A stretch of DNA of 56,804 bases, from positions 1 through 56,804 of the IMG/VR virus record IMGVR_UViG_3300032240_000220; one strand, 5' to 3'. This document shows, one piece after another, positions 9,880 to 36,729 of the stretch (positions are counted from its first letter, which is position 1; each line of letters begins with the position of its first letter). The translations under genes were made by a program, and so were the position numbers. The notes under the pieces were generated by a model. That model saw only the letters and a list, made by a program, of their open reading frames with translations, had not been told where the DNA came from and ran no database searches. Origin of the DNA: a virus.

Positions 9880-10974
9880 TTATGGCTGAGGCATTCCTAA
9901 CATTGGGCGTTCCTCAGCCGATTTTTCTCTCATCTTGTCGAGCACCATGAGCGCCGCGGGAGATGCCATAGTCAATCCTGTTCCAACTGCTCTAGTCATA
10001 GGATGTGGAATCAAAGATAGGGCAGAACCCGCCGCTCCCGCCCCAGCTATACCAGCACCCACAGTATCACCTGCGTTGTAACGAGATAGTGCTTCTTGAC
10101 CAAATCCAGCTATGCCAGCACCACCCAAAACCCCTCTTACTGGCGGAGAGTTGAGTAAAGCACCACCAATGTTGGTAGCTTTTTGTAGGGGGGACGTTTC
10201 AATTATTGGAGGCTTGTTGGTTCTAAAAGTAGGTGTACGCACCTCACCAGTTAAAGGATTGCGAATAGTCGCTCCCTTGCGGGTTCCTTGCTCTGCTTGA
10301 TGAGCTTGCGCCATGGTGTCAGCACCACGTTGGTTGTACCCCATAGAAGCTGTCCACTTCTCGACTGGAGTCATTGCTTTGGCATTGGGGGAAGGGCCAA
10401 GGATGGCGGAACCAATCGAATAGGTTGTACCCAAACCAGCACCAATGCCACCACCAAGCTCCGCCGCTTGCAAGCTACGCATGTGATCAACTGATGCAGG
10501 CGTAATGTTGTCTGGTGGCTTAGGAGCCTCTTCCTTTGCAGGTGTAGGCGTGAACCCACCCAACTCGTTGATCTTGTTAACGTATTCCAAAGACTTTGCA
10601 GGAGGGCTATCAGCCTCTCCAAGCAAGAAGGGGTGGTCGTACCCTGCGTTGTATCCGATAGCCGCTAATTTGGGGCTTCCGTAGCGTTCTACGCCTTGTT
10701 TGAGATACCTCATCCCAGTCTCGATGTTGGTGTCTAGGTCTTGCAAACCTTTTGTATCAACACCAAGCATTTTTCCTGTGGGTGGCATGACTTGCATCAC
10801 GCCAATTTCACCACTTGTACCGATAGCACTCATCCTGAGACCGCTCTCAACGTAAGCTAAGGTTACAGCTAGGCGAGGATCTACCCCATACTCCTTGGCT
10901 TTGGTAATAACCTTAAAAGCAATCTCTCGTTGCTGGGGGTCTAGCTTGTCAATGAACGCTAATTCGTCAGCCAT
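9880..10974 (-). CDS. Virion-type lytic transglycosylase, 364 aa
   Basis: Residues about 15-130 form an SLT-type lysozyme-like domain. Catalytic Glu43 lies in AYVESGL, GEIGVMQVMP is at 55-64, NIETGMRYL follows, and YNAG precedes the closing YVNKI. The family cleaves peptidoglycan glycan strands to anhydro ends. The remaining 230 residues are Pro/Gly/Ala-rich with hydrophobic GAGIAGAGAAGSA-like stretches that could insert into membranes. Its location at the end of the late transcript, among other large virion-type proteins and apart from the endolysin, suggests an internal or ejected protein that opens the cell wall at infection rather than at lysis. Confidence 0.85.
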   Translation of the reverse strand: MADELAFIDKLDPQQREIAFKVITKAKEYGVDPRLAVTLAYVESGLRMSAIGTSGEIGVMQVMPPTGKMLGVDTKGLQDLDTNIETGMRYLKQGVERYGSPKLAAIGYNAGYDHPFLLGEADSPPAKSLEYVNKINELGGFTPTPAKEEAPKPPDNITPASVDHMRSLQAAELGGGIGAGLGTTYSIGSAILGPSPNAKAMTPVEKWTASMGYNQRGADTMAQAHQAEQGTRKGATIRNPLTGEVRTPTFRTNKPPIIETSPLQKATNIGGALLNSPPVRGVLGGAGIAGFGQEALSRYNAGDTVGAGIAGAGAAGSALSLIPHPMTRAVGTGLTMASPAALMVLDKMREKSAEERPMLGMPQP

Positions 10975-10982
10975 ACCAGTCC

Positions 10983-12572
10983 TTATTGGTTACCAAGTTC
11001 TTTTTTGAGGTCTTGTGCGGAAATCTTGCCAGCGGGTGTAGTCGTACCAGTTTTTGTAGTTGTGCCTTTTGAACTTGGGGACACAATGTTCATCAAGCGA
11101 TTCTGATACGCATTGAATATCGTATCGAACCTTGGAGTATCTTCAAACTGGTCATAAGACAACTTGCTACGTTTGAGTTCTTTTGCGAGTTCAATGTCAA
11201 ACTTAGCTTTCTCTTGCAAGAACTTGATCTTTTGCATGTAAGCGCCGTATGGATCATCTTGGCTAGGCGTTACGCGGTTAGCCATCATCTGTTCCATATT
11301 AGACACAGAAGTACCAGCGCCTAGACCTTTACGGCTTTCCATCTGCCACATAGCTTCGATTTGACCCAACTCAGCAAGCTTGTCGATCATCTCTTGTGGC
11401 GCGCCAGACTCAGTAATAATTTTCTTAACTGCTGGAATACCAATAGAGAAGTTACCAATCTTGAACGCTTCGTTGACCAAGTTACCCAAGGCAGAGGTCA
11501 CATCACCCCTACTTAAGACACCAAGATATTCTTTAATTCTTGGATCAGCCAATATTTCATTAGCGCGAGTAAAGCCTGCCTGAGAGCCTCGAGCGCCTTT
11601 GGCGGCGTCTAATGCGGCGTTGGTGCGCTCAGCCTCAGAGGTAGCCATCTTGACGGCGCGCTCTTTGTTGGCGGCGGCTTCTGCTTCCAAGGAAGATTGC
11701 GTAGTGCGATCACCACCACTAACGACAGGTGCTCCACCAGCAGGCACAGCGTCACGGGAAATGGGCTTAGAGGTGGCGTCAACGATGCTCCAATACTTCT
11801 TGCCGTCACCAGCACGACGAGCTTCGTCGAGAGCCATGGCGTCTTCTTCAGGCATTTTGATGATCCCGACCCCGGGGACGATGCGCTCCACCATCGGTTT
11901 GCCACCAAATGGCGTGTACTTGGGGCCACCCTGTGCAGTGACATCGACATAGCCCCCGGGTTGCACCTTGAATCCCTCGTTCTTCAGCTTCAAGAACTCC
12001 ATCGCTGACTTACCCAACTCCGTGTCATAGCGACCAATCAGGAACGCCTTCTCTGCTGTCATGTCCAAGAACCCTGAAGGAAACTGTTGACCATTGACAG
12101 AAATGGTTTTTGATTGATCACCAGCGGGCGCGCCAGCTTGAACGCCAGCTTGAGCAGGTGCACCAGTAGTGGTTGGCTTACCTGTACCAAACGCAATACC
12201 AAGCGCTTTGTTTTTAAGGTCTTGTTGGCGTTCAGCTTGAGCTAGTTGCAAACGGATCTGTGCGTTGTCTAGATTTTCTTTTTCTTCTTGTTGCTGGACT
12301 TTTAAGACGTTACCAGCCGCTTGCCCTACTCCCTCACCAAATGATCCTGTAGCAGTAGGTGCTAGCATTCCTTGAGAGATAGCCAAGAGGGTTGGGTTGT
12401 ATCCACGAGTTTGACGTGCATCTAACGCCGCCTTAATCTTTGCTAAAGCGTTTTTGTATTCCAGTTCCGAATCGGTCTGGTCGGTAAGATTCAAAGAACT
12501 TCCCTCAAGAGGGCCAACCCCAGAGGGTTTCAAAGAACCCGCGGCTAATGCTGTTAGTGCGCTTCCTCCCAT
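10983..12572 (-). CDS. Large putative internal virion protein, 529 aa
   Basis: A 529-residue protein with no recognised enzyme motif. The N-terminal 60 residues are Gly/Ser-rich. Residues about 85-125 form a Q/E/K-rich coiled coil (VQQQEEKENLDNAQIRLQLAQ). A middle strand-rich region and then a helical C-terminal half (EAEAAANKERAVKMATSEAERTNAA) are followed by a Thr/Lys-rich tail. It lies between the lytic transglycosylase and the 354-residue gene with gaps of 8 and 2 bases. By place and composition it is a candidate ejection (internal core) protein, as podoviruses have three such proteins downstream of the nozzle. Confidence 0.65.
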   Translation of the reverse strand: MGGSALTALAAGSLKPSGVGPLEGSSLNLTDQTDSELEYKNALAKIKAALDARQTRGYNPTLLAISQGMLAPTATGSFGEGVGQAAGNVLKVQQQEEKENLDNAQIRLQLAQAERQQDLKNKALGIAFGTGKPTTTGAPAQAGVQAGAPAGDQSKTISVNGQQFPSGFLDMTAEKAFLIGRYDTELGKSAMEFLKLKNEGFKVQPGGYVDVTAQGGPKYTPFGGKPMVERIVPGVGIIKMPEEDAMALDEARRAGDGKKYWSIVDATSKPISRDAVPAGGAPVVSGGDRTTQSSLEAEAAANKERAVKMATSEAERTNAALDAAKGARGSQAGFTRANEILADPRIKEYLGVLSRGDVTSALGNLVNEAFKIGNFSIGIPAVKKIITESGAPQEMIDKLAELGQIEAMWQMESRKGLGAGTSVSNMEQMMANRVTPSQDDPYGAYMQKIKFLQEKAKFDIELAKELKRSKLSYDQFEDTPRFDTIFNAYQNRLMNIVSPSSKGTTTKTGTTTPAGKISAQDLKKELGNQ

Positions 12573-12574
12573 TA

Positions 12575-13639
12575 TTATTCTCCTTCGCCTATTGCCGTAC
12601 CGCCACCAATTAACTGACCATTTGCATCGTAATATGATTTATTATTTGCATTTGATCCAATTAATGAATTAACGCCTTCAGTGGTTGTTCCGCTCATTCC
12701 AGTTTGATCAGAACTAAAAATATTACCAACATCGCCCCAGCTAGAGGTTGGGATTTTGTTTAATATGGTGGAGAGCCAGCCGGGCGTCGTAGTGCCAGCC
12801 GCATTTGTCGATGTGCTTAATCCACTACCAATCAACGCCCCTAGACCTGTAATCTGAGACAACGGAGAAGCGCTGTATACCCCAGCCATTGGGCCTCTGT
12901 ACGTCTCGGTAACCGATGTAGGAACCTGATACCCGCGCATGAGAGCGGCGGCGTTGGTAGCGTTCTTCAATGGCGCATCAATTTTCGCTTGGTTAAATGA
13001 TTGTTGCTCAGCACCTGCTTTGGTCATTGCACCTGCACCTGTAAGACCTAGCTCTTGCTCTTTTCCAGCCAAGTTTCCTTGAGTCTGAGCAACTTGATTT
13101 TGCAGTTGCGCCTCAGCGAGAGCGGCGTCCAGAGCGGATTTATAACCAGAACTTAAAGCACCATACTGTTGACCAGTAAGGTTGGATTGCCAGTCAGCGG
13201 CAGTCTGACCCAATGCGTTCGCATAGCGTTGGCTTCCCAAACCACCAGTACCAACAAACCCAGCCTTCAGTTGAGGCATTAAGTTTCGTTGGATGTTTTG
13301 ATTTTGCAAGCGAGCCATCTCATCTACCACGTTGGTGGTATACGGATTCATAAACCTGTTAATGTCTTGAGAGCTTACGCCAGACGCATTAGCCGCCGTT
13401 TGCTCGGCAGTAGTAAGTTGAGGTTTGTATGCATCAGCGGCGGTAGGAATTGCTCCATACCCTTTTGTTTGCAAGTCAGTCAGTGGAGCTACAAGTTGAT
13501 CAGCAGGGCGGTTAAGCGCTGTTGCACCTGCACCAGCAATTCCAGACAAATAGTCTGTAAAAAACTGTGGTGCTGTTGTTGCAGACGTCTTTGTGGTGTT
13601 AACGTCTGGTGCTACTTTACCTTGGAAAATATCAGCCAT
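12575..13639 (-). CDS. Putative internal virion protein, 354 aa, Ala/Gln-rich
   Basis: A 354-residue protein rich in Ala, Gln, Thr and Gly. It starts MADIFQGKVAPDV and contains a long helical middle (LNRPADQL ... SALDAALAEAQLQNQVAQTQGNLAGKEQELG). A segment DINRFMNPYTTNVVDEMARLQNQN near 115 looks like a conserved core, and I have the impression that similar blocks occur in other aquatic phages. The C terminus is Ser/Asn/Gly-rich. It fits the ejection-protein group together with its two large neighbours. No catalytic residues are visible. Confidence 0.65.
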   Translation of the reverse strand: MADIFQGKVAPDVNTTKTSATTAPQFFTDYLSGIAGAGATALNRPADQLVAPLTDLQTKGYGAIPTAADAYKPQLTTAEQTAANASGVSSQDINRFMNPYTTNVVDEMARLQNQNIQRNLMPQLKAGFVGTGGLGSQRYANALGQTAADWQSNLTGQQYGALSSGYKSALDAALAEAQLQNQVAQTQGNLAGKEQELGLTGAGAMTKAGAEQQSFNQAKIDAPLKNATNAAALMRGYQVPTSVTETYRGPMAGVYSASPLSQITGLGALIGSGLSTSTNAAGTTTPGWLSTILNKIPTSSWGDVGNIFSSDQTGMSGTTTEGVNSLIGSNANNKSYYDANGQLIGGGTAIGEGE

Positions 13640-13641
13640 TT

Positions 13642-16600
13642 TTAGCTCCTAGCCTTTGTGCGCTTAGTTTTGAGGAAGTCAAGAGGTGACTTAATCTCTG
13701 GTGGCAAATCTTGTGGTTTTGCCGATCTGACATGCGAACGGATGCCATGCATCATGTCATAGAGTTTATCTGAACCTGCCTTAGTTGACCCGTTTCCGAT
13801 TGCGGCTACAACGTCCGCAGGAAAAACAAATTCACCGTCTGCCAACATAGCTGGAATATCGTCTGATTGACCATCCCCTGCACCTGTTACAGCGTCTCCA
13901 GAGCGGAAGTCAACCCGCATTTTTCCACTATGGGGGATGACGTTGGCAGACAGACCTCCAGTAGCGTATTGTCCGTAGCGAGTACCAGTCATGCCACCCG
14001 CCGCCATCAAAGGAGTTGACATCAGCCCTCCTTCTTTGGCGTACATACCTGTGTCAGTTGACAACCCAAGGATGTCGTCAATGGACTGGTTTTGCCCATA
14101 GTTGTAAAAAGGATCATTCATATTTTGCTGGCTTTCAGGTTGCTGGACTGATTGAGTTACTGGTTGTTCTGGTAATTTGTACGGATTTTCGTCTGCAAAT
14201 GGCTGTGTTTGCAAGCGATAGAAAGCTTCAAGAGGATCTTTGAAGGTGTCTTGAGTTGCTTTAGATGTCAAGAATGTGGGTGCGAGTGCCGCCGCGGCAG
14301 TAAGCGCACCTGCTCCAGCAGACGAGAGTTGATCTCCAATACCACCCAATGTAGGAGCAGATCTTCCTAAGTTGGCTTTTTGAGTTGCAATTCTGTCAGC
14401 TTCCAGCTTGTCAGCGGCGGCTTTAGCGTCTGCCGCCGCCTTTGCGTCCGATGCGGCTTTAGCATCTGCAATGGCTTTAGCATCTGCCTCTGCTTTAGCT
14501 TTAGCCTCTGCATCAGCCTTAGCTTGAGCTTCCGCTTGTGCTCTTGCTTGCGCTTCCAAGGCGGCTTTAACCGCGGCTTCTTGTGCGGCTTTTTGCTCTG
14601 TGGCTACTTGCGCATCATGCGCCGCTTTTGCTTCAGCCGCTTGTTGAGCCGCTAACGCCTCAGCCTGTGCTTTGGCCTGAGCTTCTGCCTGAGCTTTTGC
14701 TTGCGCTTCTGCTGTAGCTTTATCAATTTCCGCTTGTCTTTCTTTAGCCGCTTGGGCTTCAGCGGCTACTTGTGCATCGTGTGCCGCTTGAGCATCCGAA
14801 GCGGCTTTAGCGGCGTCGGCATCTCGAGCCAATTTAGCATCAGCGGTGGCTTTATCTATTGCGGCTTGACGCTCTGCGGTGGCTTTGGCCTCTGCCGCTA
14901 CTTGAGCATCGTGAGCGGCTTGCGCATCAGCAAGGGCTTTAGCGTCAGCAATTGCTTTTGCTTGGGAAGCGGCTTGCGCATCTGCAAGAGCCTTTGCGTC
15001 AGAGGCGGCTTTATTGTCGGCGGCGGCTTTTGCTTCAACAATTTGTTGCGCGGCTATTTGATCTGAACGAGCTTTGGCTTCAGCAATTGCTTTTGCATCA
15101 GCCTCTGCTTTAGCTTGTGCTTCAGCTTGAGCTTTAACTTTAGCCTGCTCTTGAGCTTGCAATCTATCTTGTTCGGCTTGTTTTGCAATTTCTTCTTGTC
15201 TTAACGCTTCTTCCCTAGCGGCTTGAGCCGCCGCTTCTGCTCGAGCTTGGTCTTGAGCTTGTTTAGCAAGACGTGCAGACTCCGCTAGGTCAGCTTGTTT
15301 TTTAGCTTCTGCAAGCGCGGCTTCTTTGGCGGCTTGTGCATCACGTTGTATTTGTGCTTGTCGTTGAGCTTCTGCCTGCGCGTCTGCTTGCGCCTTAGCT
15401 TGGGCATCTGCTTGTGCCTTTGCTTGCGCCTCCGCTTGGGCTTTTGCTTGTGCATCTGCTTGTGCATCTGCTTGGGCTTTAGCTTGCGCTTCTGCCTGAG
15501 CACGAGCTTGTGCATCCGCTTGTGCTTGAGCTTGAGCTTGAGCTTCAGCCTGTGCTTGTGCTTGTGCTTGTGCTTGTGCTTGTGCTTGTGCTTTAGCATC
15601 TGCGTCTGCCTTGGCTTGAGCATCTGCCTTGGCTTGTGCTTCAGAAGCTAGACGAGCATCCTCCGCGGCTTTTTGGGCGTCAGCCTGCGCTTTGGCTTGC
15701 GATTCTGCTAGTTGACGTGCAATCTCTGCTTGTCTTGCGGATTCTTGACGAGCGGCTTGTGCGGCGGTTTCCGCCTTGGCTTGGTCTTGCACTTCTTTGG
15801 CAAGTCTGGCAGATTCAGCTAAGTCTGATTGGCGTTTTGCCTCAACGTCCGCGGCTTGCTTTGCCGCCAATGCATCTGCTTGTGCTTTAGCCTGTCTATC
15901 AGCCTCTTCTTGCGCTAATCTAGCCTGTTCTTGAGCTTGTTTGGTCGCCTCTTCCCGAGCGGTTTGCTCTTGCGCTAAACGATCTGCCTCCGCCTTAGCC
16001 TGCGCATCCGCTTGCGCTTTAGCCTGTGCATCAGCTTGTGCTTTAGCTTGGGCATCCGCCTGTGTTTTAGCATCAGTCTCTGCCTGAGTCTTGGCTTGTA
16101 ACTCAGCTTGCGCTAAACGCTCTACTTCTGCCTCAATCTGAGCGTCTTTTTGAGTGTCAACAGTATTAGTAGGAAGTAATTGTGTAGTAGTATCAGTAGG
16201 CGCATTTGTTTCTGTGCCAATTGATGTACCGCCAGTGGTTCCACCTAAACCCGTACTAGTGTCAGAAGTTGGTTCTGTTTTATCTGGCTTAGCTAATGAA
16301 GTAAACGAATAACCACCGCTACCCATCATCCAATAGCCATTGTTGGCCGCATCAACCCAAACGCCACGGTCTGGGTTCCATACAGCACCACGATCTGGCG
16401 GGAATACTTTGCTTACAGTGCCATTAGTCAAACCAGTGTTTGGCAATGTGGAATCACTAGATGCAACTTGAGTCCCAGTGTAATCAGACGCTACGTTTTC
16501 TGCTGTCTTGTAACCAGCCGTAACATCTTTAACCTCTTCTTGTGCTTGCTGTAACGGCGTTTTAGGTTCTTCAGTTTTTGCTTTGGCTTGTGCATCCGCC

Positions 16601-18792
16601 TGTGTTTTAGCGTCTGCTTGAGCCTTTGTTTCTGCTTCGGCTTGAGCTTTTGCTTGCTCTTGTGCCTGTTGATCAGCAAGTGCTTTAGCGTCAGCTAATG
16701 ATTTTTCATGCGCCGCTTGCTCATCAGCCAAACGCTTGGCTTCTGCTTGAGCGGCTACTCTTGCATCCTCAGCTTCTTTGGCGGCGGTTGCTTGGCGAGC
16801 AGATTCTTCCCTAGCCGCCTGCGCCGCCGTTTCCGCCTTCACTTGATCCTCTGTTTCTTTGGCGAGACGAGCGGCTTCGGCAAGTTCAGTTTGACGTTTC
16901 GCTTCTGCATCAGCCGAGGCTTTTGCGGCGTCAGCATCCGCTTTTGCTTTTGCTTGTCTGTCAGCTTCGTCCTGAGCTACTTTGGCATCCTCTGCCGTCT
17001 TCTTAGCCAACGCGCTAGCATCATCCACCGCTTTTTGTGCCGCTACTCTGTCCGCTTCTTGCGCTTTAAGAAATTCTTGATCTTTGTTGTATTGCGCTAC
17101 ATTTCCGCCATATAAACTGTATAACTTGTAATCAGGGAAACCTGTTTTTTGTGCAATTGCTTGTTGAGCTAATTGTTGATCGCTTTTATAAGCGTTGATG
17201 TCTCCGTTGTATTTATCAGATGTAAAAACATCTGGAAACCCAGCTTTTTGTGCCTCTTCATATTTTTTAGCATACTCAGCATTTTTTTGTTCTTCAGCTT
17301 GAGCATTTATATAACTGGCGTAATCAGGGTATCCATGCGCTTTAGCTTCTTCTAGTTGTGCATCGCCTGCAGATTGCCATAATAATCGACCTGCTTCTGC
17401 TTTATCCGCCGCCGCCTTGTCTGCCGCCGCTTTTTCATCTATTGCTTTTTGAGCTTCAGCTTTTTGTTGCTCTTCTAATTTTGCTTGCTCTGCTTTTTTT
17501 TGCTCTTCTAATTTTGTTTGTTGCTCTTTTATAAGAGCATTTTGCTCATCTGTTACTTGTTTTAATGCTGTTGGAGAAACTGATCCAGCCAAATCAGCAA
17601 CATACTTTTGAACTTCATTTTGATATTTAGTTATATCATCTGAATTTAATTTGACTAAATTAGTGTTATTGTTATTAAGTTCCGAAATTTGAGTATTAAT
17701 CTTTTCAAGAGGAACATTAAACAACTTCTCATATTGTTTTTCAAATGTTTTAACTTGTTCAAGATGATACGGAAGATTGTTATCAACCCATGATTGAGTA
17801 GTTCCTTGTTTTTGTTCAAGAATAGGTTGAAGATCATTTAACTTTGCAACAGCATCATTTGCTTTTGTATAAGCGTCATTGTTGCTTGGGTTAGCCTCAA
17901 ACGCCGCCTTGTTTTCTTCATAAACTTTATAAGTATCAAGAAATTGTTGTCTAGTAGTGTTGTAATCGTTAGTAAGAGAAACTGCTGTGTTATATGCATT
18001 TTGTGCATATTGAATAGCCTGTCTGTAACCACTGTTACCATAATAGGTATTGGCTTGCGAAACTAAATCTTCAGCTTGTTTGGCAAGTGATTTACCAATC
18101 TCATTGTTTTTATTGATTTGATCTGAACGCCCTTCAATAGCCGCAGACAAAGAAGTGGTTACAACTGAATTTGCAATTGCCTGTGTAACATCTTTACCAG
18201 CCAAAATGGCTTGCGTAGCGCTTTGTACAGCACCAGTAATTAGTTTGTTGTCTACCTTGGTGTAACCTTGATCTGTTAACTGAGCATTGACGTAGCTAGT
18301 TACCGCTCCAGTAACGCCAGCTTTAAGCACATCATCTAAACTTTTCCCTTGAAGCGCAGTGACAGCCGCTGATCCAGACGAGCTTATAACTATTTGTTTG
18401 ATTAACGCTTCATTTGCGTATTGGGGGCCAAGTTGTTGGAGGGTTTGGCTTTCAATTGGTGAGTAAATGTCACCAGCCTCAATACCAATTTTTCCACCCG
18501 CATAAGCCGTAGCCGCCGCAAGCGCAATGTTCTCCATCTTCCCGCCGTTGGCGGCGGCAACCGCGGCGCTAGCAAGCGTAGCGGCGTAGGCTTCTGAGGC
18601 GATTGCTAGACCTGCTGGGCCGAGGATTGCAGTTAACGCTACCGTTTCAATAATTGGTAGCGGGTTACGAATAATGTTGTCTACAGCCGTATTTACACTA
18701 CTAACAATCTTTTGAACGCCAGATGTAGTTTTGTCAAGAAGACTTTGACCTGAACTTTGTAGATTGTCTAATTCTTGGCCTGCATCAGACAT
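13642..18792 (-). CDS. Giant alanine-rich rod protein, 1716 aa (TolA-like coiled coil)
   Basis: Several zones can be read. (a) Residues about 1-230: Ala/Gly/Ser-rich with hydrophobic helices ([21 protein letters not shown]). (b) About 230-490: heptad coiled coil. (c) About 490-600: three copies of a GFPDY-type repeat. (d) About 600-1550: very long AKAQADAQ-type alanine/charged helix, like the periplasm-spanning domain II of TolA, broken at about 800-860 by a compact segment with [11 protein letters not shown]. (e) C-terminal 230 residues: Gly-rich, with a KEGG...AAGG motif and a block containing [20 protein letters not shown] and [16 protein letters not shown]. It is the largest candidate ejection/core protein. 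The rod could span the periplasm. No enzymatic site is seen. Confidence 0.8.
15551..15592. repeat. Perfect hexanucleotide microsatellite, seven copies
   Basis: TGTGCT is repeated seven times without error. On the coding (minus) strand it gives (AGCACA)n and encodes alternating Ala-Gln. Because the unit is 6 bases, slippage adds or removes two residues without breaking the frame, so the rod length can drift. Similar but degenerate repeats surround it. Confidence 0.9.
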
Positions 18793-19189
18793 TTACTGTT
18801 CCTCTGTACTGCGTTATGCCATTTTCATCAACGCCTAAGTTTTCTATTTTGATTGGATAACCAAATCTTTCAATCAGTTGTAATGTGGGTAAATTATCTG
18901 TTTTTCCAGACACATTTGTGTATCCAGCCACATGCATAGCTTTTGCAAATTCTCTAAAATTTCTAGCAAATTTGTTGGGCGGATCAGCGTTAAACATAGC
19001 AACTTCTGCTTTGTGCTCACCTTTGATAAAAATAATAAATAAAGAATTTCCAGAACGCATCATGCGCGCCGTGTTTGCTTGTATTAAATTTGCTACTTGC
19101 ACATAAGCTTTTTTCCAATCATGTCCAAACCTTTTTAGTTCTGGGCATTTTTGGAATATTTCTTGCGGAGTCATTAAATTTTTATCCAT
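18785..19189 (-). CDS. Gp13-like/GNAT-fold small virion protein, 134 aa
   Basis: A 134-residue protein. It has a GNAT-like rhythm: a helical start ([18 protein letters not shown]), a strand pair ([23 protein letters not shown]), a helix ([18 protein letters not shown]) and a closing [17 protein letters not shown], which resembles the end of acyltransferase-like domains. T7 gp13, encoded next to the nozzle and core genes, has a comparable layout and is a virion/tail assembly protein. Position supports this, since it overlaps the giant rod gene by 8 bases and follows the nozzle cluster. Whether it binds any acyl-CoA is unknown. Confidence 0.5.
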
Positions 19190-19199
19190 ACCACGTCTC

Positions 19200-19448
19200 T
19201 TATGCTGTATCAGGGTTAACAGCGTTTACTAACGCCGCCGCCCAATCTTGCCAGTTTTCAAAGGCATCGGTCATTGGTATTGCTTCATTGGCGAATACAT
19301 CTATGGCACGAAGCCCATTTCCCCACAACTTCCAATTGTCCTCAGAAGTCGGAATCTCTAAGTTTTGCGCCGCGTATGCCTCAACCATAAGATAAGCCCA
19401 CGATAAAAAATCATGGTATCTAGGGTCATATACAAGCGCAATTGTCAT
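19200..19448 (-). CDS. Hypothetical protein, 82 aa, next to nozzle gene
   Basis: An 82-residue protein, tryptophan- and alanine-rich (HDFLSWAYLMVEAYA, NWKLWGNGLRAIDVFA, NWQDWAAALVNAV), with the look of a small helical bundle. It overlaps the nozzle gene stop by 4 bases and so is translated together with it. I do not recognise a family. A tail accessory or assembly role is suggested by position only. Confidence 0.65.
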   Translation of the reverse strand: MTIALVYDPRYHDFLSWAYLMVEAYAAQNLEIPTSEDNWKLWGNGLRAIDVFANEAIPMTDAFENWQDWAAALVNAVNPDTA

Positions 19449-21427
19449 CCGTATGGTCTCGTATCGCCAATGTCAGCATCAAGAAGCACTCTACCAACTT
19501 GATAGTCACCACCAGCAATATTACTGACAAACTTTAGACGCAACTCGCGCCTTTGCTCACGCATGTCTATCTTTCCTGTGTCTGAATTAAATGGGTAAGG
19601 CCCTGTCGTGACATCTTCTGTTTGCGCAAAAGGTCTACCTGTAACGTACAGGTTCATCTCATTGGTTTGCAAGAAGTCAGGCTCCACACGCTCAAGACGT
19701 ATCCACTTGTTGTTGCCCATCAGAGATGGCTGAGAAGGCCCACCCGAGACCCAGCCAAGGTCATTAGTCTCAAAGTAGCTCTCAATCGCTGTAAAGTCCG
19801 ATCCACGGATTCTGTCAACACCAAATTCATGTTGCCATAGAGATACATAGTCCATCAGGTATGTAACTTCTATTTCAAACCCAGCACCACTTGGCAGGTC
19901 AGCAGACAAGAAGTCGCCTACTATGTAATCAAACCCGTGAGAATTAATTACACAGCTAGTTACTGCTCCGCCAGAAACAATAATTGTTGCTATCGCGCTA
20001 TTGCCTGCTCCACCAGTAAGAGGCACAAAGTTGTATGTACCGTCGTCATAACCAGAACCTGCATTGGTAATGGTAAACAAGGAAACGCCACCTCCAGCGT
20101 TTACAGTCCATTCCGCATTGATTGGATAGTGAAAAACTTGGGAGAAAAATCCAGCAGAGCGACGCGCTCCTAAAGCTTCGCCTGTGTCATACCATGTGTT
20201 CTCACGAATGTTATAGATGATGGCATCTGTACATTCAGTTGCATTACCCCTTGGGTAGAACCACCAAATCTCTCCAAACCGCGGAACCTTGGTCGCATAG
20301 ACTTTCTGTCTTTGAGCGTAGTTCAGGTTGTCAAAGAAGTAGTTCTGGTTCATGTTGTTAGGGATTTCCTTCACAACACCGTTATAGAGCAAGAAGCGGT
20401 CAACGCCACACCAGTAATAAATACCATCGTATTCAATTACAGATTGGCTAGACAGGATAGATGACTGGCTAGAAATAATGTCATAGCGCCAAAACTGAGG
20501 GGGTGTTCCCACACCACCGATGTAGGAGACGCGGATCAGGCTATCAAGGCTCCAAAACAGCCCAGAAGGCGCGTTAGAACCACCCCTGACGGGTAGCCCT
20601 TGGACAATCTTACTTGTCGCTACGTTGGTCTCATTAGCGTCCGCAGACACCCAGTCGTTTGTGTTACCTGCTGAGCAGTTCTTGATCAGACCGTTGTTGC
20701 CGTAAACAAATAAGTATGGATGCAAAGACACAACCCCACCAGAGACGGAAATGTTGTTGTTAAAAGTAACTGTGACCGTACCGTTAGCAGTTGCTGGGTT
20801 TGAGATAACTACGTTTACCGTAGAAACCGAGACCACAGTGGTATTGGCAGGAATACCAGTACCAGTCACCGTCTGACCTGCACCAATCAAGGGGTTGGAC
20901 GCACCAAGAACAATCGTGGTGCTTGTAATTGCTGTAGTAGCAGAATCCGTAAACTTACCAATTTGTGAAAGTGAAGTTCCAGATAAAGAGCCACCTAACA
21001 CTGGTGTATTAGTGGCGTTATCAATTTCGACAATGTCTTGGCTAGGATGAGCAACCAAGAGGTTACTGCCTGAACCACTGACATCGGTAAAGGTATCAAA
21101 CTGCCACAAATTTAAATCACTTGGAGTAAATTCAGTAAGGGTGAAATCTACAATACCAGCGCCAATACCATTGTTGGTAATAGGAATGACCTGTAAGCCG
21201 TTGTTATATCCGCTATACAGATTGTTAAAACCGCTTTGAGGGATGAGATAAACGCCCCGAGAAGGGCCTGCCAATTGGTCAGTAATCAGTCTATACCCAC
21301 CGATTTTGCGGGGACGACCGCGTTGGAAGCGTACCCAGCGACCGCTGTTGTAAAAGTCTTTGTCAAACACAGTGCCATCGCGTTGGACGCCCGGCTTCGT
21401 GTCGAGGGCAAACACCTTTGCTGTCAT
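19445..21427 (-). CDS. Tail nozzle/tubular protein B, P22 gp10-like
   Basis: A 660-residue beta-rich protein. The opening (FALDTKPGVQRDGTVFDKDFYNSGRWVRFQRGRPRKIGGY) and the ending (VGRVLLDADIGDTRPYG) are what I associate with P22 gp10-type packaged-DNA stabilisation/nozzle proteins. The body reads as WD/kelch-like propeller blades (LWQFDTF, LFVYGNNGLI, IYYWCGVDRFLLYNG). Residues about 165-225 look like a short Ig-like insert rich in Thr/Val. A second Gly-rich insert lies near 435-490. It would form the hexameric lower tail through which DNA leaves, joined to the gp11-like adaptor encoded two genes upstream. Confidence 0.82.
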   Translation of the reverse strand: MTAKVFALDTKPGVQRDGTVFDKDFYNSGRWVRFQRGRPRKIGGYRLITDQLAGPSRGVYLIPQSGFNNLYSGYNNGLQVIPITNNGIGAGIVDFTLTEFTPSDLNLWQFDTFTDVSGSGSNLLVAHPSQDIVEIDNATNTPVLGGSLSGTSLSQIGKFTDSATTAITSTTIVLGASNPLIGAGQTVTGTGIPANTTVVSVSTVNVVISNPATANGTVTVTFNNNISVSGGVVSLHPYLFVYGNNGLIKNCSAGNTNDWVSADANETNVATSKIVQGLPVRGGSNAPSGLFWSLDSLIRVSYIGGVGTPPQFWRYDIISSQSSILSSQSVIEYDGIYYWCGVDRFLLYNGVVKEIPNNMNQNYFFDNLNYAQRQKVYATKVPRFGEIWWFYPRGNATECTDAIIYNIRENTWYDTGEALGARRSAGFFSQVFHYPINAEWTVNAGGGVSLFTITNAGSGYDDGTYNFVPLTGGAGNSAIATIIVSGGAVTSCVINSHGFDYIVGDFLSADLPSGAGFEIEVTYLMDYVSLWQHEFGVDRIRGSDFTAIESYFETNDLGWVSGGPSQPSLMGNNKWIRLERVEPDFLQTNEMNLYVTGRPFAQTEDVTTGPYPFNSDTGKIDMREQRRELRLKFVSNIAGGDYQVGRVLLDADIGDTRPYG

Positions 21428-22674
21428 ACAAATGTACCCCCAGAAATTCCACCTTCAAAGTTCCCTGTACCTGTTGCTGAGATATTCCCAATTACATGCT
21501 CTCCTGTAGCCGAGTATTCCACCAACTCATTGCCAAGCACTGAAATTCCCATCAACCCAACCGATGGTCTAAAAATTCCCGTTGTTGGATCAGCCACAAA
21601 ACTAAGCGATGGATTAACCGAAGATCCATTGACCAAGCTAACTGAAGTACCGCCAGTAATCACCGTATTTGCGTTAAATAAGTTTGTTCCATCACAAACC
21701 AATGTTGCTTGCTGGTTGACTGGAACCGCTACTGTATTTCCATACGTAGTTGTAAAAGACAGAGTATATAAACCAGCAATTGTCTGGTTAGATACCACAA
21801 ACAACAACGATGCAGGAGGCAACACAATCGTTACGTCACCAGTCAAAGTTCCAATGTATTCCTGAATGACGTTATTTGCTTCGTTAACCGTCAAAACATA
21901 AGTACCACTTGTTACTGGCTTGACTAATGTTGTAAAAATAAATTGGGTACTCTGTCCATATCCAATCGTTATGTATTCTGACCCTGTGCATATAACAATA
22001 GCCGACTCGACTGGAGCAAAAGGTTTTGTTAAACCTCCATCAATCGTCTCGCCTGTAGAGGCGGTCATTGTCAAATAACCACTACCAATGTTTTTAAATA
22101 AGAAAAACCAGTTGTCGCCAAGACTCGCCGCGGGCGGTAGGTTCAATATTCCAGCACCTGAAGACCAAATCAAAGTTTGAGCGCGATCAGTTGAAGCTAC
22201 CGTATAACCATTAGAAAAACCACCTGTAGGATGGCTCTGGTTAAGGGTAGCGCCTTGGGCTAGCAGTCCGTAACCAGCTAAGACAGAAGCGTCTGGGTTT
22301 GATGTTCCAACACCAAAAGCAAAGATTCCCCATGTACCACCAACATTTGGGTTAGCGGTAACGTAGATGTACTTTGCTTCCCCAGCAAGGATGGTGACGA
22401 TTGTTCCACCACTGTTGTCCAGTACCGTAAAAGTCTCACCGCCTACGTTTTGAATCAGCGCGTCAGTTCCAACCGATGTTTGGTTGGCTGGGGGCATGGT
22501 AAGAGTTCTACCGCTAGTTGGGGCGGTAACTTCCATGATGCGAGCGGCGTAGTTGTCGGTTGCGTTGCCGTTGATAGGCCACGACAGCGTGACATCAGTA
22601 GTCAGCGTAATGGCGCGAAAGCTTACGTCCGTTGGAAGTATGACGTCGCCAGTAAAAGGGGAAACGTAACTCAT
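21424..22674 (-). CDS. Tail fibre/appendage protein, 416 aa
   Basis: A 416-residue, almost entirely beta, Thr/Gly/Val-rich protein. It opens MSYVSPFTGDVILPTDVSF, a start seen in phage appendage proteins with repeated strand-turn blocks (LTMPPANQTSVGTDALIQNVGG). The C terminus ends FEGGISGGTFV and matches the GVSGGTF end of the 1,222-residue fibre encoded at 33060-36728, so the two may share a trimerisation or attachment tip. It lies between the gp11-like adaptor and the nozzle, overlapping both by 4 bases. A host-range role is likely. Confidence 0.7.
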   Translation of the reverse strand: MSYVSPFTGDVILPTDVSFRAITLTTDVTLSWPINGNATDNYAARIMEVTAPTSGRTLTMPPANQTSVGTDALIQNVGGETFTVLDNSGGTIVTILAGEAKYIYVTANPNVGGTWGIFAFGVGTSNPDASVLAGYGLLAQGATLNQSHPTGGFSNGYTVASTDRAQTLIWSSGAGILNLPPAASLGDNWFFLFKNIGSGYLTMTASTGETIDGGLTKPFAPVESAIVICTGSEYITIGYGQSTQFIFTTLVKPVTSGTYVLTVNEANNVIQEYIGTLTGDVTIVLPPASLLFVVSNQTIAGLYTLSFTTTYGNTVAVPVNQQATLVCDGTNLFNANTVITGGTSVSLVNGSSVNPSLSFVADPTTGIFRPSVGLMGISVLGNELVEYSATGEHVIGNISATGTGNFEGGISGGTFV

Positions 22675-23306
22675 GAGTCAATCGCTACGGCTTGACGATC
22701 ACCCACGCGAGACTGATCCTCTGCTTTGAGGGTTTGCATGATGAGGTCATATTGTTGTTGCCACATAGGCGTGCGCTCATCGTTCTTGAGGAATGGCATA
22801 GCCTGCAAGAGCGAGCCATATAGCAACGCTTGTGGGGCGTAAATGGTGAACCAGTTGGTCTGGTTGCTTGAGTCCAAGGGTTGAATGCGCTCGTAGTACA
22901 GCACTTCAAACGAGTAGTTTGAGGTTGGTGTAGGGGCAATCAACCAGTGGGTGTAGTCATAGTCTGCGTAGTATTTAGGAACATCCGTCATGGTGGCGTC
23001 AGGCCAATACTCGCGCAGGTACTCATATTTTCTCAACAAGACTGGATTTCTTATGCCACCAACTGTGACGTTCATCGAGACTGTTTTGTGCCAACGAGCA
23101 GGCTTCTCAATGATTGCCTCTGTGGCAACCATGTTGCTTTCGTTGACTGTTAAATTACCAAGAAATTTGATCTGGCTAGCAATAATTTGCTCTGCCAGCA
23201 TGATAAAAGTTGGAATTTTTTGTAGGGTAGCTGTGTCGGTACGTTCCAGATAGGACTGGATGTTTTCAACCAAGCTGTCATAAGTCATTACCGCCGCCGT
23301 CGCCAT
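22671..23306 (-). CDS. Head-tail adaptor/tail tubular protein A, T7 gp11-like
   Basis: A 211-residue protein. The body MTYDSLVENIQSYLERTDTATLQKIPTFIMLAEQII ... and later YYERIQPLDSSNQTNWFTIYAPQALLYGSLLQAMPFL match the helical-bundle adaptor family (T7 gp11, P22 gp4-like) that joins portal and nozzle. The start is ambiguous. ATG 23306 has AAGG 8 bases upstream. The seventh codon, ATG 23288, sits in a TAATG with the stop of a short upstream reading frame and gives the family-like start MTYDSLV. Adaptor, appendage and nozzle are encoded in a run with 4-base overlaps. Confidence 0.8.
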   Translation of the reverse strand: MATAAVMTYDSLVENIQSYLERTDTATLQKIPTFIMLAEQIIASQIKFLGNLTVNESNMVATEAIIEKPARWHKTVSMNVTVGGIRNPVLLRKYEYLREYWPDATMTDVPKYYADYDYTHWLIAPTPTSNYSFEVLYYERIQPLDSSNQTNWFTIYAPQALLYGSLLQAMPFLKNDERTPMWQQQYDLIMQTLKAEDQSRVGDRQAVAIDS

Positions 23307-25578: not shown

Positions 25579-28500
25579 TTAAAACATTAAGAAAAAGTTT
25601 CCAGTGGCTGTTGCACTAAAAGTAAACACAAAACCCAATGATCCACCATTGGTTGAGTTATTTATAGACCAAGTAGTCGTTGTTGGATAAGCGCGCACAA
25701 ATGTTGGTACAACGTAGTTAACACCAGACAGAGATCCTGCGCCTGTATAAATCAACGTAGCAGGAGATAAGTAAGATGTTCCCGTGATGGTTAACAGGTT
25801 TCCAGAAGTTCCAGTGGCAGTCCATGCTCCTACTGTTTGAGTGGTAGTGCCTAAATCAATAGTATTTGCAACAGTTTTTATACTGGATATTTTTGCAAAT
25901 GTGTTGTTACCCGTGATGGTAAGTGTTGAAATACCTGTTGCACCACCAATAGATAGTTCTGGATAAGAAAGACCGCCACCTGCAAATGTTTTGGCTGTGG
26001 TTGACGTATCATTAAGAGATATGTTTCCTGTGCCTTTATTTATTGTGGCATTTGTGGAAGTTGCCATATTCCACACAGTGCCTGTACCTAATAAAACAAG
26101 AGAACTAGAGCCAAAAGTAAGGGTTCTAGTACCGCTACCAGATGAAGAAAATGTAGACGTGAATAATGCAAAGTTATTTAAATTTAGTGTTCCATTAGTT
26201 AATGTTGTTGAGACAACTGCGTTTGTTGAAAACGAATCTTGCAAAGTAACAGAACCACTTGGACTGTTAATGATAATAGGTTGAGAAAAAAGTTTAGAGA
26301 CACTTGTAATTGTTTGTGTAGTTCGTCCTGCAAATGTCATTGCTCCAGTGCCAGACAACGTAATCCCACTACCATTAATCCAATTACCATAAATAAATGG
26401 TGTAGCTGTACTTGTAGCTAACGTCATAGTATTTGACGTTCTCAATGACATATCTATTGTGCCAATGTTGTAGTTGGCGTTAATAGTTGTTGTTGAGCCA
26501 GACGCAGGGTATGTAGCCGCTGGGAAAATGGCGGTATCTTGTGCTAAAGGGAATCTATTTGCATTTGTTGCGCCACCCGACGTACTAGCCCAAGAACCTG
26601 TTCCAGTTGCACCCCAATTAGCAGAACCTGTTTGTGCAAAATAATGCGTTCTAGCGGAGGTAAATGTTATATTTCCACTATTACCGCCACAGTCACCTAT
26701 ACGAGTATTTACACCACCAACAGTCCACGTACCCGCACCCGTAATATCTTGAAAATCAACATCTGTTAAATCTATATTGGGAATAGTCAATGTGCGTGTA
26801 GTACCAAATACAGAGGATAAAATCATTATTCGATATGCCGAGGCAGTACCAGCAGTTACTGTTAGATAGTTAATTGTTTGGTCTGCGGCAAACGTTATTT
26901 TGCCGATTCCAATAGTAGTTCTACCAGTTATAGATACATTATTAAATGTATTTGCGCCTGTTATTGATGGTGTAGTAAGAGCCGTAGATGTAAAAGATAC
27001 GTCAGAAAATGTTTGTCCGCCACCAGCAAATGTTGCACCTGCGCCAGAAAGATTAATTGTTGATGTCCCAGCATTTAATGTAGCATTAGTGCTGGATGTC
27101 ATATTCCAAGGAATAGCGATTGAACTTAACGTAAGTGTAGAAGCATTTAAATTAATTGTTCTTGCATTTGCATTACTTGAAGAAAAAACTGAAGCAGTCA
27201 CAGCATAATTTCCAGATGATGATGTACTAAACGTGCCATAAGTAATCGCAACCGTATTACCGCCAATATTTAACGCACTTCCAAGCGTCCAAGTAGAACC
27301 AATACCGTTCACAGCGACTGAACTTCCTAGTGTTACTCCATTGGTTATAAATGTATAACTAGAATTACCAACGCAGTTTATTGTGCCTGTGTAAGTATTA
27401 GTAATACCTGTAGCGGCAAACGATACGTTACCGTGGAATGCAATATTAACAAATCCAGCAAAAGTCACGTTACCAGATGCAGGGCCAGCCATCGTAAACG
27501 ATGCACATCGAGCAATTGCTACACCAGCGTCAATTGTTGCTGTGTAAGCTGTAGCGTTAGATGCTGAGTTAAACGTGACTGTGTCCAAAGACATTGGAAT
27601 AGACGCGCCAGATGCACCGCCTGAGGATGTAGACCACTTAGTTGTTGATGACCAGTTACCTGTACCGCCTACCCAATACAGAGTTCGTGCGGCAGGTGTT
27701 GCTGTAAAGAAGATTGGGCCAGTGTTACCAGCGGTGTTTGTGCTATTTGCACCTACGTAGAACTCGCCTACGCTTGTTGTTGACACGGCGCAATAACTAA
27801 TTGACAAGTAATCGATGCCTGTGTTTGCAGGGCCAGTAATAAAAAGTGTATAAGCTGTAGCTACTGATGAGGGTTGAACAGTTACTACATTACCCGCCGT
27901 TCCTGTAACAGACCATTTCCCAATGGAGTAAATCTCAATTGAAAAAATTGTAATTGTGTGCGCTGTAGTTTTTGTAGACGCTAACTCCCCAAGAACAAAA
28001 GTCCCTCGTAAACTAAAGTTTGAAATGGCACTGCCACCAATTGTTATTTTGTTGTAATATTGACCAGAGGCGGCTACAAATCCACGAGGAGTTGTGGTGT
28101 TGTTAGAAAATACTATGTTTGATTGGCCCGTAAATATAGTGCTAGTAATAATACTTGTATCCCAAGAATAAAGTTGTGCGCCAGTAATAGTCCATGTACT
28201 ATTCCCCATTTTTAGCACACAATTAGCCCCTGAAATGCTAAAAAGACTTGCCGTCACAGCAAAGTTTGCTGAATCAAAAGTTCCGCTAGTTATAGATATA
28301 CCATTACCTGAAGTAAAAGCATCTGCAAGTTGTAAAACCGTATTAGGTGATGCTGGCGATACCACTAAACTTGAACCAAACGAAGCACCATTACAAGTAA
28401 TTGTTTGTGTGCCAAATTTTACAAAAAGTAAATTTGCAGAACCTGATGTAGCTACTCCTGTACCAAGTTTGAAATTTCCATAGATAGATGTGTTTACTGA

Positions 28501-30759
28501 AAAACTTAATGTCATTGCACTTGTTCTTGTTGAAGCGTCAAGTGTTCCTATGTTCCATATAGTTTGAACTGATACTGTTGTAATAGATCCTGCGTTATCA
28601 AATACGGCAGTATCTTGAGGTAATGGAAAATTGTTAACAGCAGGCGTACCGCCAGATGCTGTACACCATGCTGTAGCAGAATAATTGTTTGTCCCCGCCA
28701 AGTTCCAGTAAACAGTCTTAGGCGCTGGAAATGTTATGCCTGAATTGTTTCCACAATCTCCTGCTCTAGTAGGTGCTGTACCTGCCGCTGTTCCTGCAAT
28801 AGTTATATCGCGGAAATCAGTATCTGTAGCTGATAAGCTATTAACCGTTAACGTGATTTTTGTTCCAAGTACGCTTGACTGAACAAACCCGCGTTGTACG
28901 GCAGATCCGCCACCGCAAGTAAATGTTCCATTGATTGTTTGGTTTGCACTAAAAGTGCATGGCATATAACCAGCAGTTGCAGAAGCGGTAATTAATAAAT
29001 TATTAAAAGTATTTGCACCAGTAATATTAATAAATGCAGAATTGTTTCCTGTAAATGACACATTGTAAAAAGTTACGCCTGCGCCATTAAAAGATTTTGA
29101 AGAAGAAGAAGCGCTAGAGATAGTTATTGTTGATGTTCCAGCAGTAAATGTTAAATTAGTTGATGTTGTAAAAACAAATGGTGTATTAGCTGTTAACGTA
29201 ACTGCGCTTGAACCAAGGCTAATTGTTCTTACATTACTATTATCAGAAGATATTGCATCTGCTGTAACAGAAAAATTTGCAGTATTGAAAGTACCGTTGG
29301 TAACAGTCAGCGTATTTGCGCCAATATTAAACGCATCAGCAAGCTGAACAGTTCCACCGTATGTGTCTACAGCCATTTGGCAAGTAAATGCTATACCTGC
29401 GCTAGTGATGGTTTGTGTACTGCCACCAGATAATGTTTGAGTTTGAAATCCACTTAAAGTTGTGCCACTCCCGTTTTTCCAATTTCCATACCAAGTTGTT
29501 GCATTAGTAAAAGCTAATGTCATTGCACTTGTACGTGCAGACATATCTACAGATGAAATCCATAAAAATGCGCTATCTAATGTAATTGTTCCAGTTACGC
29601 TTCCTGCATTTGTAAAAGTAGCTGTATCTTGAGGTAATGGAAAATTATCAGTAGATGGCGTTCCTGTTGAAGTGGTTGCCCATGCGTTTGCTGACCAGTT
29701 TTGTGCGCCAGCCAAATTCCAATACACAATCTTGGGTGCATCAAAAGTAATGCCTGTGCAGTTACCACGGTTACCTATACGAGTACCACTGATAGGCGAG
29801 GCTGTGCCTATGACATAGATATCGCGGAAATCTGCATCTGTAAGACTTGCGGCGCTGTTACAAGTTAATGTCCATCCAATACCGTATGTAGAGGAAGCAA
29901 AAAACACACGTTGGTTACCTGCTGTGCCTGTTGTTGACAGGGTTCCGTTAATTGTTTGGTTTCCACTAAACGATACATACATCTGCCCCGTGGTAAAGGG
30001 GGCGGCGATAGATAGATTGTTAAAAGTGTTTGCACCGTCGTCTAATACAAAAAACCCAGAAGTAGTTTGGGTAACTGCTACGTTGTAGAAGGTTTTTCCT
30101 CCACCATAGAAATAAACAGTAGTGGATTTTGTGTTTAAGATATTTATCTGCGAAGTACCTGCATTAAAAGACAGGTTTGTAGACGTAAAGTTTACAGGAT
30201 TCCCCCCTGTGGTGGACGAACCTAGGTTTATGGTTGAATTGCTAAGGTTGATTGCTCTAATCGACGCGCTATTAGAATTAAGCGATAGCGTAGTGATTGC
30301 AAACCCGCCTGAATTAAATGTTCCATTGTTTACTGCAATTGAATTGGTTAATCCTGTAGTTAGCGCCGATCCTAACGTCCATGCACCACCAACTCCACTA
30401 AAAGTTAGCGAACCATTGAGGGTAGTTCCGTTAGTTGTAACTGTTTTGCCTGTTGTTGTTGCATTAAACGTAATAGCGCCAGTAGAACTCCATACAGTAC
30501 CAGCCAACAAAGACATTGACCCACTAATTGTTGGAGTACCAGTGCTACTAAACGTAACAGTGCCAGCAGAAACTGTAAAGTCAAGGCAAGTAAGTGCGCC
30601 TGTTAATGTGACCGTATAAGTTCCTGCTTGGTCAAAGAATACTGAGTCAGCGGCTGTAGGTACAGAAGCACCACTAGCTCCGCCAGATGAAGCAGACCAA
30701 TTGGTTGTGCTTGATGTGTTCCAAGTACCCGCTCCACCCACCCAATATCTATTAGCCAC
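25579..30759 (-). CDS. Giant repeat adhesin/tail fibre, 1726 aa
   Basis: A 1,726-residue Ser/Thr/Gly/Asn-rich beta protein made of five large units that begin near residues 3, 346, 684, 1029 and 1373, a period of about 340-345. Each unit opens with an aromatic (Y/H)(W/F) signature (RYWVGG, YWNLAG, YWNLAG, LYWVGG, HYFAQT), then W...SGG, then a P/FPL-x-QDT-x-x-F segment, and continues with beta-solenoid-like strands (ITITSGTFDSANFAVTA). No enzymatic pocket or chaperone domain is recognised at the C terminus. It is probably a trimeric receptor-binding fibre or head/tail decoration. Length is far above most podovirus fibres. Confidence 0.75.
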   Translation of the reverse strand: MANRYWVGGAGTWNTSSTTNWSASSGGASGASVPTAADSVFFDQAGTYTVTLTGALTCLDFTVSAGTVTFSSTGTPTISGSMSLLAGTVWSSTGAITFNATTTGKTVTTNGTTLNGSLTFSGVGGAWTLGSALTTGLTNSIAVNNGTFNSGGFAITTLSLNSNSASIRAINLSNSTINLGSSTTGGNPVNFTSTNLSFNAGTSQINILNTKSTTVYFYGGGKTFYNVAVTQTTSGFFVLDDGANTFNNLSIAAPFTTGQMYVSFSGNQTINGTLSTTGTAGNQRVFFASSTYGIGWTLTCNSAASLTDADFRDIYVIGTASPISGTRIGNRGNCTGITFDAPKIVYWNLAGAQNWSANAWATTSTGTPSTDNFPLPQDTATFTNAGSVTGTITLDSAFLWISSVDMSARTSAMTLAFTNATTWYGNWKNGSGTTLSGFQTQTLSGGSTQTITSAGIAFTCQMAVDTYGGTVQLADAFNIGANTLTVTNGTFNTANFSVTADAISSDNSNVRTISLGSSAVTLTANTPFVFTTSTNLTFTAGTSTITISSASSSSKSFNGAGVTFYNVSFTGNNSAFINITGANTFNNLLITASATAGYMPCTFSANQTINGTFTCGGGSAVQRGFVQSSVLGTKITLTVNSLSATDTDFRDITIAGTAAGTAPTRAGDCGNNSGITFPAPKTVYWNLAGTNNYSATAWCTASGGTPAVNNFPLPQDTAVFDNAGSITTVSVQTIWNIGTLDASTRTSAMTLSFSVNTSIYGNFKLGTGVATSGSANLLFVKFGTQTITCNGASFGSSLVVSPASPNTVLQLADAFTSGNGISITSGTFDSANFAVTASLFSISGANCVLKMGNSTWTITGAQLYSWDTSIITSTIFTGQSNIVFSNNTTTPRGFVAASGQYYNKITIGGSAISNFSLRGTFVLGELASTKTTAHTITIFSIEIYSIGKWSVTGTAGNVVTVQPSSVATAYTLFITGPANTGIDYLSISYCAVSTTSVGEFYVGANSTNTAGNTGPIFFTATPAARTLYWVGGTGNWSSTTKWSTSSGGASGASIPMSLDTVTFNSASNATAYTATIDAGVAIARCASFTMAGPASGNVTFAGFVNIAFHGNVSFAATGITNTYTGTINCVGNSSYTFITNGVTLGSSVAVNGIGSTWTLGSALNIGGNTVAITYGTFSTSSSGNYAVTASVFSSSNANARTINLNASTLTLSSIAIPWNMTSSTNATLNAGTSTINLSGAGATFAGGGQTFSDVSFTSTALTTPSITGANTFNNVSITGRTTIGIGKITFAADQTINYLTVTAGTASAYRIMILSSVFGTTRTLTIPNIDLTDVDFQDITGAGTWTVGGVNTRIGDCGGNSGNITFTSARTHYFAQTGSANWGATGTGSWASTSGGATNANRFPLAQDTAIFPAATYPASGSTTTINANYNIGTIDMSLRTSNTMTLATSTATPFIYGNWINGSGITLSGTGAMTFAGRTTQTITSVSKLFSQPIIINSPSGSVTLQDSFSTNAVVSTTLTNGTLNLNNFALFTSTFSSSGSGTRTLTFGSSSLVLLGTGTVWNMATSTNATINKGTGNISLNDTSTTAKTFAGGGLSYPELSIGGATGISTLTITGNNTFAKISSIKTVANTIDLGTTTQTVGAWTATGTSGNLLTITGTSYLSPATLIYTGAGSLSGVNYVVPTFVRAYPTTTTWSINNSTNGGSLGFVFTFSATATGNFFLMF

Positions 30760-36728: not shown

Positions 36729-36729
36729 A

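Follow-up and report, generated by a model that had tools for sequence, protein, structure and literature searches.

Ejection proteins are hard to study, and position and size usually serve to match them from one phage to another. Phage SU10 has five of them, gp20-24, and a channel inferred to cross the periplasm (PMC9509320), while P22 escapes the inner-membrane exclusion protein SieA through changes in its ejection proteins (PMC10883804). The ejection proteins gp15 and gp16 show large size differences between phages (PMC8954989), and HTVC010P-type pelagiphages carry a hypervariable island with an internal virion protein (PMC6487183). Here, these systems are compared with a locus in a 56.8-kb virus record that has the gene set of a short-tailed phage (IMG/VR record IMGVR_UViG_3300032240_000220, positions 1 to 56,804; this whole stretch is hereafter called the window). 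The gene in question encodes a protein of 1716 amino acids (aa), referred to as the rod protein for its long Ala-rich stretches. Its relatives share conserved ends, exchange their middles, carry a tape-measure motif at the C-terminus and occupy a syntenic gene cassette. The reading that we favor, with some reserve, is that this virion protein is ejected, docks through a conserved end, and diversifies in its host-facing part through the exchange of cassettes.

The rod protein resembles podophage ejection proteins (T7 gp14/15/16, P22 gp7/20/16, and SU10 gp20-24) in its position beside tail genes and in its clustering with a DNA-ejection-protein relative and a transglycosylase. It differs from them in that it has no detectable sequence relation to the named proteins and carries a tape-measure motif, and the exchange of its middle is far stronger than the size variation reported for podophage ejection proteins. 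The motif, 37 residues of the form G.G.G.SD.IPA.L.DGEFV....V...G.G that are sometimes duplicated, is held in common with siphophage tape-measure proteins such as gp16 of mycobacteriophage Douge. Those proteins are also very long, helix-rich, and ejected, a likeness that extends in the rod protein to predicted helices and, putatively, to ejection. In contrast to tape-measure proteins, the rod protein belongs to a short-tail gene set with no tail tube to measure, its length is not conserved, and its motif is C-terminal rather than internal. The HTVC010P-type island likewise lies beside tail fibre genes, with an internal virion protein among its 3' reads (PMC6487183; PMC10504331). However, that island belongs to a different phage family and its variation was seen by read recruitment, whereas the variation described here is resolved, with DNA breakpoints, to a single gene and within it to the N-terminal and middle part.

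Conserved ends and an exchangeable middle

Complete relatives of the rod protein range in length from 294 to 2749 aa, with a coefficient of variation of 0.41 compared to 0.02-0.19 for neighboring genes. Their middles also differ in kind. Among 88 relatives, ten have Ala-rich rods, ten have Gly/Ser/Thr-rich middles, and ten have Pro-rich middles; the others are different, and some combine two types. Collagen-like middles occur in some relatives, and a long collagen-like SG.SG repeat forms the middle in loci L021 (4326-8489) and L023/L024. Modules move within the protein: one with the sequence YSFTSL interrupts the rod in the window, comes after it in L099, and lies at residue 494 in L101.

The Ala-rich rod is thus an exchangeable spacer, one of several interchangeable middles, and not a ruler of the periplasm. 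An earlier note on this DNA had proposed a helix sized to span the periplasm and a comparison of length among related phages with host envelope thickness. Because only about 10 of the 88 relatives have the rod and total length varies so widely, rod length cannot be matched to the envelope, and length as an envelope ruler was rejected for the variation in both total length and type of middle. By simple arithmetic, a continuous helix of 601 residues, the size of the longer rod in the window, would measure approximately 90 nm at 0.15 nm per residue. The periplasm is several times shorter, so such a helix could not lie straight across it.

Exchange is visible at the DNA level between closely related loci, all of which are metagenome contigs. 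In the pair L037/L041, protein identity is 99% for the adaptor, 99% for the tail protein, 100% for the 660-aa-type protein, 39% for the N-terminus of the rod-protein relative, 99% for its C-terminus, and 98% for the adjoining protein P2. The left and right DNA flanks of this pair are 99.0% and 96.4% identical, respectively, and enclose unalignable sequences of 1.1 versus 1.9 kb. Flanking DNA in the pair L009/L008 is 91.8% and 95.4% identical, and L093/L098 and L028/L042 follow a like pattern, with near-identical sides and different sequence inside the rod-protein gene. In these four pairs, the left breakpoint falls within a span from approximately 510 bp upstream to 94 bp downstream of the start codon. 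The right breakpoint precedes the stop codon by approximately 570-720 bp in five of eight compared pairs. The window and its closest relative, L020, conform on the right side (85% identity, starting 670 bp ahead of the stop codon), but on the left the two have generally diverged as well. Any single pair could contain a chimera; open frames and the repetition of the pattern across independent samples argue against chimeras as the explanation.

The conserved C-terminal end comprises approximately 200 residues, the last 150 or so of which match at least 589 viral contig stretches, and a 47-residue core is nearly invariant across 60 relatives. This end carries the motif common to siphophage tape-measure proteins. 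At least 61 of 65 C-termini match each of five PHROG families annotated "tail length tape measure protein", a similarity at the level of the motif only, and none of five reversed C-termini used as a control gave any match. The C-terminal profile also matches the Douge tape-measure protein gp16 (PDB 8zdo) with an E-value (E) of 3e-5 and two motif copies; residues 1658-1699 of that protein were modelled by its authors, and the motif region, 967-1003, lies outside the modelled part (PMC13033339). A duplicated tape-measure-type motif, as in the Douge protein, occurs at the C-terminus of L103:8001-10775 and L013:5075-6994.

At the other end, a profile hidden Markov model from alignment A1 recognizes 43 of 85 N-termini, and transitive similarity places 63 of the 85 in one cluster, with nine smaller clusters besides. 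AlphaFold modelling, for which the earlier note had suggested multimers of segments, covered the two ends as single chains. The N-terminus was predicted to be all-helical, with confidence only at approximately residues 210-390; the C-terminal model did not reach such confidence. The earlier note had made no comment on the conservation of the two ends.

An ejection-type gene cassette

The gene order in all syntenic relatives is adaptor, 416-aa protein, 660-aa protein, small genes, rod protein, P2, P3, and a protein with an SLT transglycosylase domain (Table 1). P2 matches phrog_4287, "DNA ejection protein", in six of ten members, and the SLT protein has a match (E 3e-11) in the T7 gp16-type family "internal virion protein with endolysin domain". 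The rod protein itself matches no known ejection family; only its neighbor P2 does. Among distant phages, proteins with the motif still adjoin a P2 relative in the cultured Caulobacter phages RW and GB2A, with the gene at MK929790 34432-36174, and in pelagiphage HTVC027P, Planktothrix phage Pag-Yong1, DSL-LC04, and MW202545. The profile of alignment A4 matches HTVC027P at 3e-13 and Pag-Yong1 at 1e-20; both phages are members of alignment A2, and A4 was built without them. L018 and L019 likewise belong to the A2 profile, and for those two loci only the A4 scores are independent.

In locus L102, the motif domain (residues 262-344, E 2e-18) is fused to a phrog_4287 DNA ejection protein (residues 412-744, E 7e-16), whereas the N-terminal part of the rod-protein relative is a separate gene. 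From L102, alignments A2 and A4 include the ejection-protein section of the fused open reading frame (ORF) instead of the motif; the motif test of L102 therefore used a model built without this locus. The fused ORF (L102:10084-12318, 744 aa) combines the tape-measure-type motif domain, the DNA ejection protein, and an S74 intramolecular chaperone. As a gene fusion, it offers the best evidence that the C-terminus may work with the ejection protein. Because the gene lies in a cassette beside a transglycosylase and a DNA-ejection-protein relative, its context makes a role with the ejection apparatus likely. The earlier note had envisaged a possible trans-periplasmic ejection conduit formed with the transglycosylase and two Ala-rich neighbors; the evidence supports its ejection role but not its periplasm-spanning rod.

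A different role that would account for the variation is that of a surface-exposed, fibre-like tail appendage, the variable middle being an exposed shaft that follows receptor changes. Receptor-binding proteins typically vary by cassette while one of their ends stays conserved, some relatives contain collagen repeats and CBM_14 matches, and a lectin-domain structural protein is encoded in a hypervariable region of pelagiphage Skadi-1 (PMC10504331). The S74 chaperone at the end of the neighboring ORF in L102 is likewise usual for fibres. Nevertheless, both the tape-measure motif and the adjacent gene are indicative of internal or ejected proteins, the Ala/Gly-rich N-terminus does not resemble a fibre, and the window has separate large fibre-like genes at 25579-30759 and 33060-36746. 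An appendage is consequently a rather improbable identity for the rod protein.

The Ala-rich rod and its repeat blocks

The ORF agrees exactly with the 1716-residue Ala-rich protein described in the earlier note, which had not stated that it lies on the minus strand. Its composition is far above that of shuffled sequences: the best A/K/Q/E/D/R segment, residues 881-1467, scores 392, compared to a maximum of 63 in 1000 protein shuffles. The rod consists of 34% A, 13% Q, 9% K, 9% E, and 8% D, a composition that suggests a helix. A long Ala-rich rod is thus present; however, it amounts to approximately 780 residues, somewhat fewer than the thousand or so first reported, in two parts separated by a non-rod insert. 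No heptad (3.5) periodicity of large hydrophobic residues was detected in the rod (power 4.3 at 3.46 residues versus a shuffle 95th percentile of 7.4), and a canonical coiled coil, for which the earlier note had suggested a check, was rejected for this reason.

Three near copies of a repeat block had also been reported, and these are borne out. Their 18-residue cores lie at residues 637, 991, and 1169, and pairwise alignment scores of 179-202 exceed the 94-110 obtained as the best of 500 composition-preserving shuffles. Synonymous sites between the copies in the window are at or near saturation, which rules out a recent repeat expansion, and protein identity is 60-64%. The blocks correspond one to one (1-1, 2-2, and 3-3) between the window and L020, with identities of 72, 76, and 79%, respectively. 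The ratio of nonsynonymous to synonymous substitution rates (dN/dS) of the blocks in this comparison is 0.15-0.21, similar to the 0.22 of P2. Block identity kept despite synonymous saturation, together with these ratios, shows purifying selection on the blocks, and the rod is thus under selection as a protein; the blocks are old and not products of recent slippage. An origin of the block elsewhere was rejected, as a viral contig scan with the block matched only the contig of the closest relative; this was a single-sequence scan that detects close relatives only, and the block is visible in L099 too.

These values bear on the possibility that the middle is an unselected low-complexity spacer that merely joins the two ends and drifts by recombination and repeat expansion. 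Such a spacer would explain the great variety of composition and length among relatives, but it is an improbable account here, weakened by the dN/dS result, by the block order and sequence kept between the window and L020, and by the protein identity that the in-window copies retain; moreover, middles of up to 2000 residues would be costly in a 57-kb phage. The conserved C-terminus with an exchangeable remainder is also the layout expected for tagged cargo, with the C-terminus as a packaging tag and the variable N-terminus and middle as an effector carried into the cell. This proposal is weakened to the point of being quite unlikely by a Pfam scan of 35 diverse relatives that found no enzyme or toxin domain, only repeat and low-complexity families, and the Ala/Gly-rich helical theme recurs in the 63 N-termini joined by transitive similarity.

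A TolA mimic or TolA-derived trans-periplasmic rod, as proposed in the earlier note, is refuted as homology and scarcely credible otherwise. The likeness to TolA domain II consists of an Ala-rich charged composition and a presumed long helix, and the rod is absent from most relatives. The TolA model TIGR02794 (tolA_full) matches only the Ala-rich residues 1376-1493 (E 5e-4) at 19.5 bits, far below its cut-off of 59.45, and the unrelated ClfB Ser-Asp repeat model scores higher on the same rod (49.7), so the TolA match is compositional. The rod protein has no TolA membrane anchor, the Pfam matches include no TolA family, its C-terminal domain III among them, and the C-terminus belongs to the tape-measure-motif family.

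The window phage and its gene set

Genes indicative of a short-tailed phage in the window include those for terminase, portal, GroES-like protein, capsid protein, SU10-type adaptor, and lysozyme. The nearest portal of a named phage is that of MW202545 (Caudoviricetes, Manatee Spring), with 65% identity, followed by those of Caulobacter phages RW, KcrB, RLK, and GB2A (46%) and Roseobacter phages CRP-901/902 (33%). Neither the Rfam search nor the tRNA search of the window gave a match. Close relatives are found in two metagenome-assembled bins, one of Limnohabitans (C-terminus 64% identical) and one of a betaproteobacterium; as the binning of phage contigs is unreliable, this only hints at a freshwater betaproteobacterial host.

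Three other genes on the minus strand of the window deserve mention. A GroES-like co-chaperonin (phrog_3188; 43989-44423) adjoins the portal and capsid genes, and the Caulobacter, Roseobacter, and Pelagibacter phage relatives have one at the same place. A 1399-aa protein (49261-53460), encoded between terminase and a 664-aa endolysin-like protein, has only short matches, to families of unknown function. The 1726-aa protein at 25579-30759 contains several similar Thr/Ser/Gly-rich units (VYWNLAG..NWSA.AW....GTP...NFPLPQDTA.F) and is probably an internally repetitive tail fibre or spike.

Table 1. Coordinates of the rod-protein gene, its parts, and its neighbors in the window
Feature	Position	Strand	Remarks
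Rod protein gene, 1716 codons/aa, ATG start	13642..18792	-	ORF; relatives at same cassette position
N-terminal Ala/Gly-rich domain, residues 1-235, weakly hydrophobic	18088..18792	-	Clear conservation in 9 loci
Helical stretch, residues 205-401, predicted long helices	17590..18180	-	Predicted local distance difference test (pLDDT) ~70-93, residues 221-390
Ala-rich rod 1, residues 564-742 (179), without Gly or Pro	16567..17103	-	
Repeat block copy 1, residues 625-682	16747..16920	-	
Non-rod insert, residues 745-880, carries the YSFTSL module	16153..16560	-	
Ala-rich rod 2, residues 875-1475 (601 contiguous), without Gly or Pro	14368..16170	-	
Repeat block copy 2, residues 979-1036	15685..15858	-	
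Repeat block copy 3, residues 1157-1214	15151..15324	-	
Conserved C-terminal region, residues 1500-1716; exchange boundary near its start	13645..14295	-	
Tape-measure-like motif, residues 1632-1668	13789..13899	-	
P2, 354 aa, DNA ejection protein relative (phrog_4287)	12575..13639	-	Starts 2 bases after rod gene stop
P3, 529-aa cassette protein, no family match	10983..12572	-	
364-aa protein, SLT transglycosylase domain; also T7 gp16-type family phrog_342	9880..10974	-	
134-aa gene overlapping rod gene start	18785..19189	-	Variable between close relatives (62% in one pair)
660-aa tail/nozzle-type protein, in syntenic block	19445..21427	-	Same-place MW202545 protein annotated "phage stabilization protein"
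SU10-type adaptor protein, indicates short-tailed phage	22671..23306	-	

A proposed role in DNA ejection

As an ejected virion protein, the rod protein would be a component of the ejection module in a short-tailed phage that infects freshwater or aquatic Gram-negative bacteria. Its C-terminal 200 residues or so would serve as a phage-side dock that loads or holds the protein in the virion with the adjoining DNA-ejection-protein relative. The Ala/Gly-rich helical N-terminus would leave the particle first and meet the host membrane, and the long middle would be an extended, host-facing spacer or connector, of which the Ala-rich helix with its three old repeat blocks may be the version of the window phage. 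The host-facing part would change as whole cassettes are exchanged, the right-hand breakpoints falling where the C-terminal module begins. Such a pattern is to be expected if new variants are favored through selection by host inner-membrane factors or by exclusion systems. By analogy, the parallels with SU10, with P22 and SieA, and with HTVC010P-type pelagiphages make selection at DNA entry a reasonable candidate for the cause of the exchange.

Several observations weigh against this proposal. The N-terminal 156 residues have pLDDT values below 50 and the C-terminus a value of 56.5, so that neither a dock nor a membrane domain is supported by the models, and the hydrophobicity of the N-terminus is modest (19-residue Kyte-Doolittle maximum of 1.44). 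SU10 proteins gave no match to the motif, P2, or N-terminal profiles, and no virion proteomics was found for the window phage or its relatives. Furthermore, the exchanged middles could equally reflect relaxed constraint and recombination instead of diversifying selection.

The results correct the attractive but mistaken idea that an Ala-rich rod of this kind mimics TolA. They describe a widespread family with a recognizable signature, a link to tape-measure proteins, and natural chimeras that swap all but the putative dock. These chimeras are a ready set of alleles for asking how the host-facing part of a DNA-entry machine functions and what it is selected by. More tentatively, short-tailed phages may carry a tape-measure counterpart, with a C-terminal dock and an exchangeable host-facing part, at a locus where allele exchange is driven by host inner-membrane factors or by exclusion proteins that act as DNA enters the cell; we see this as possible rather than probable. 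If true, such a counterpart would connect long-tailed with short-tailed phages in their DNA-entry machines, and the allele exchange would place a post-adsorption arms race in one gene.

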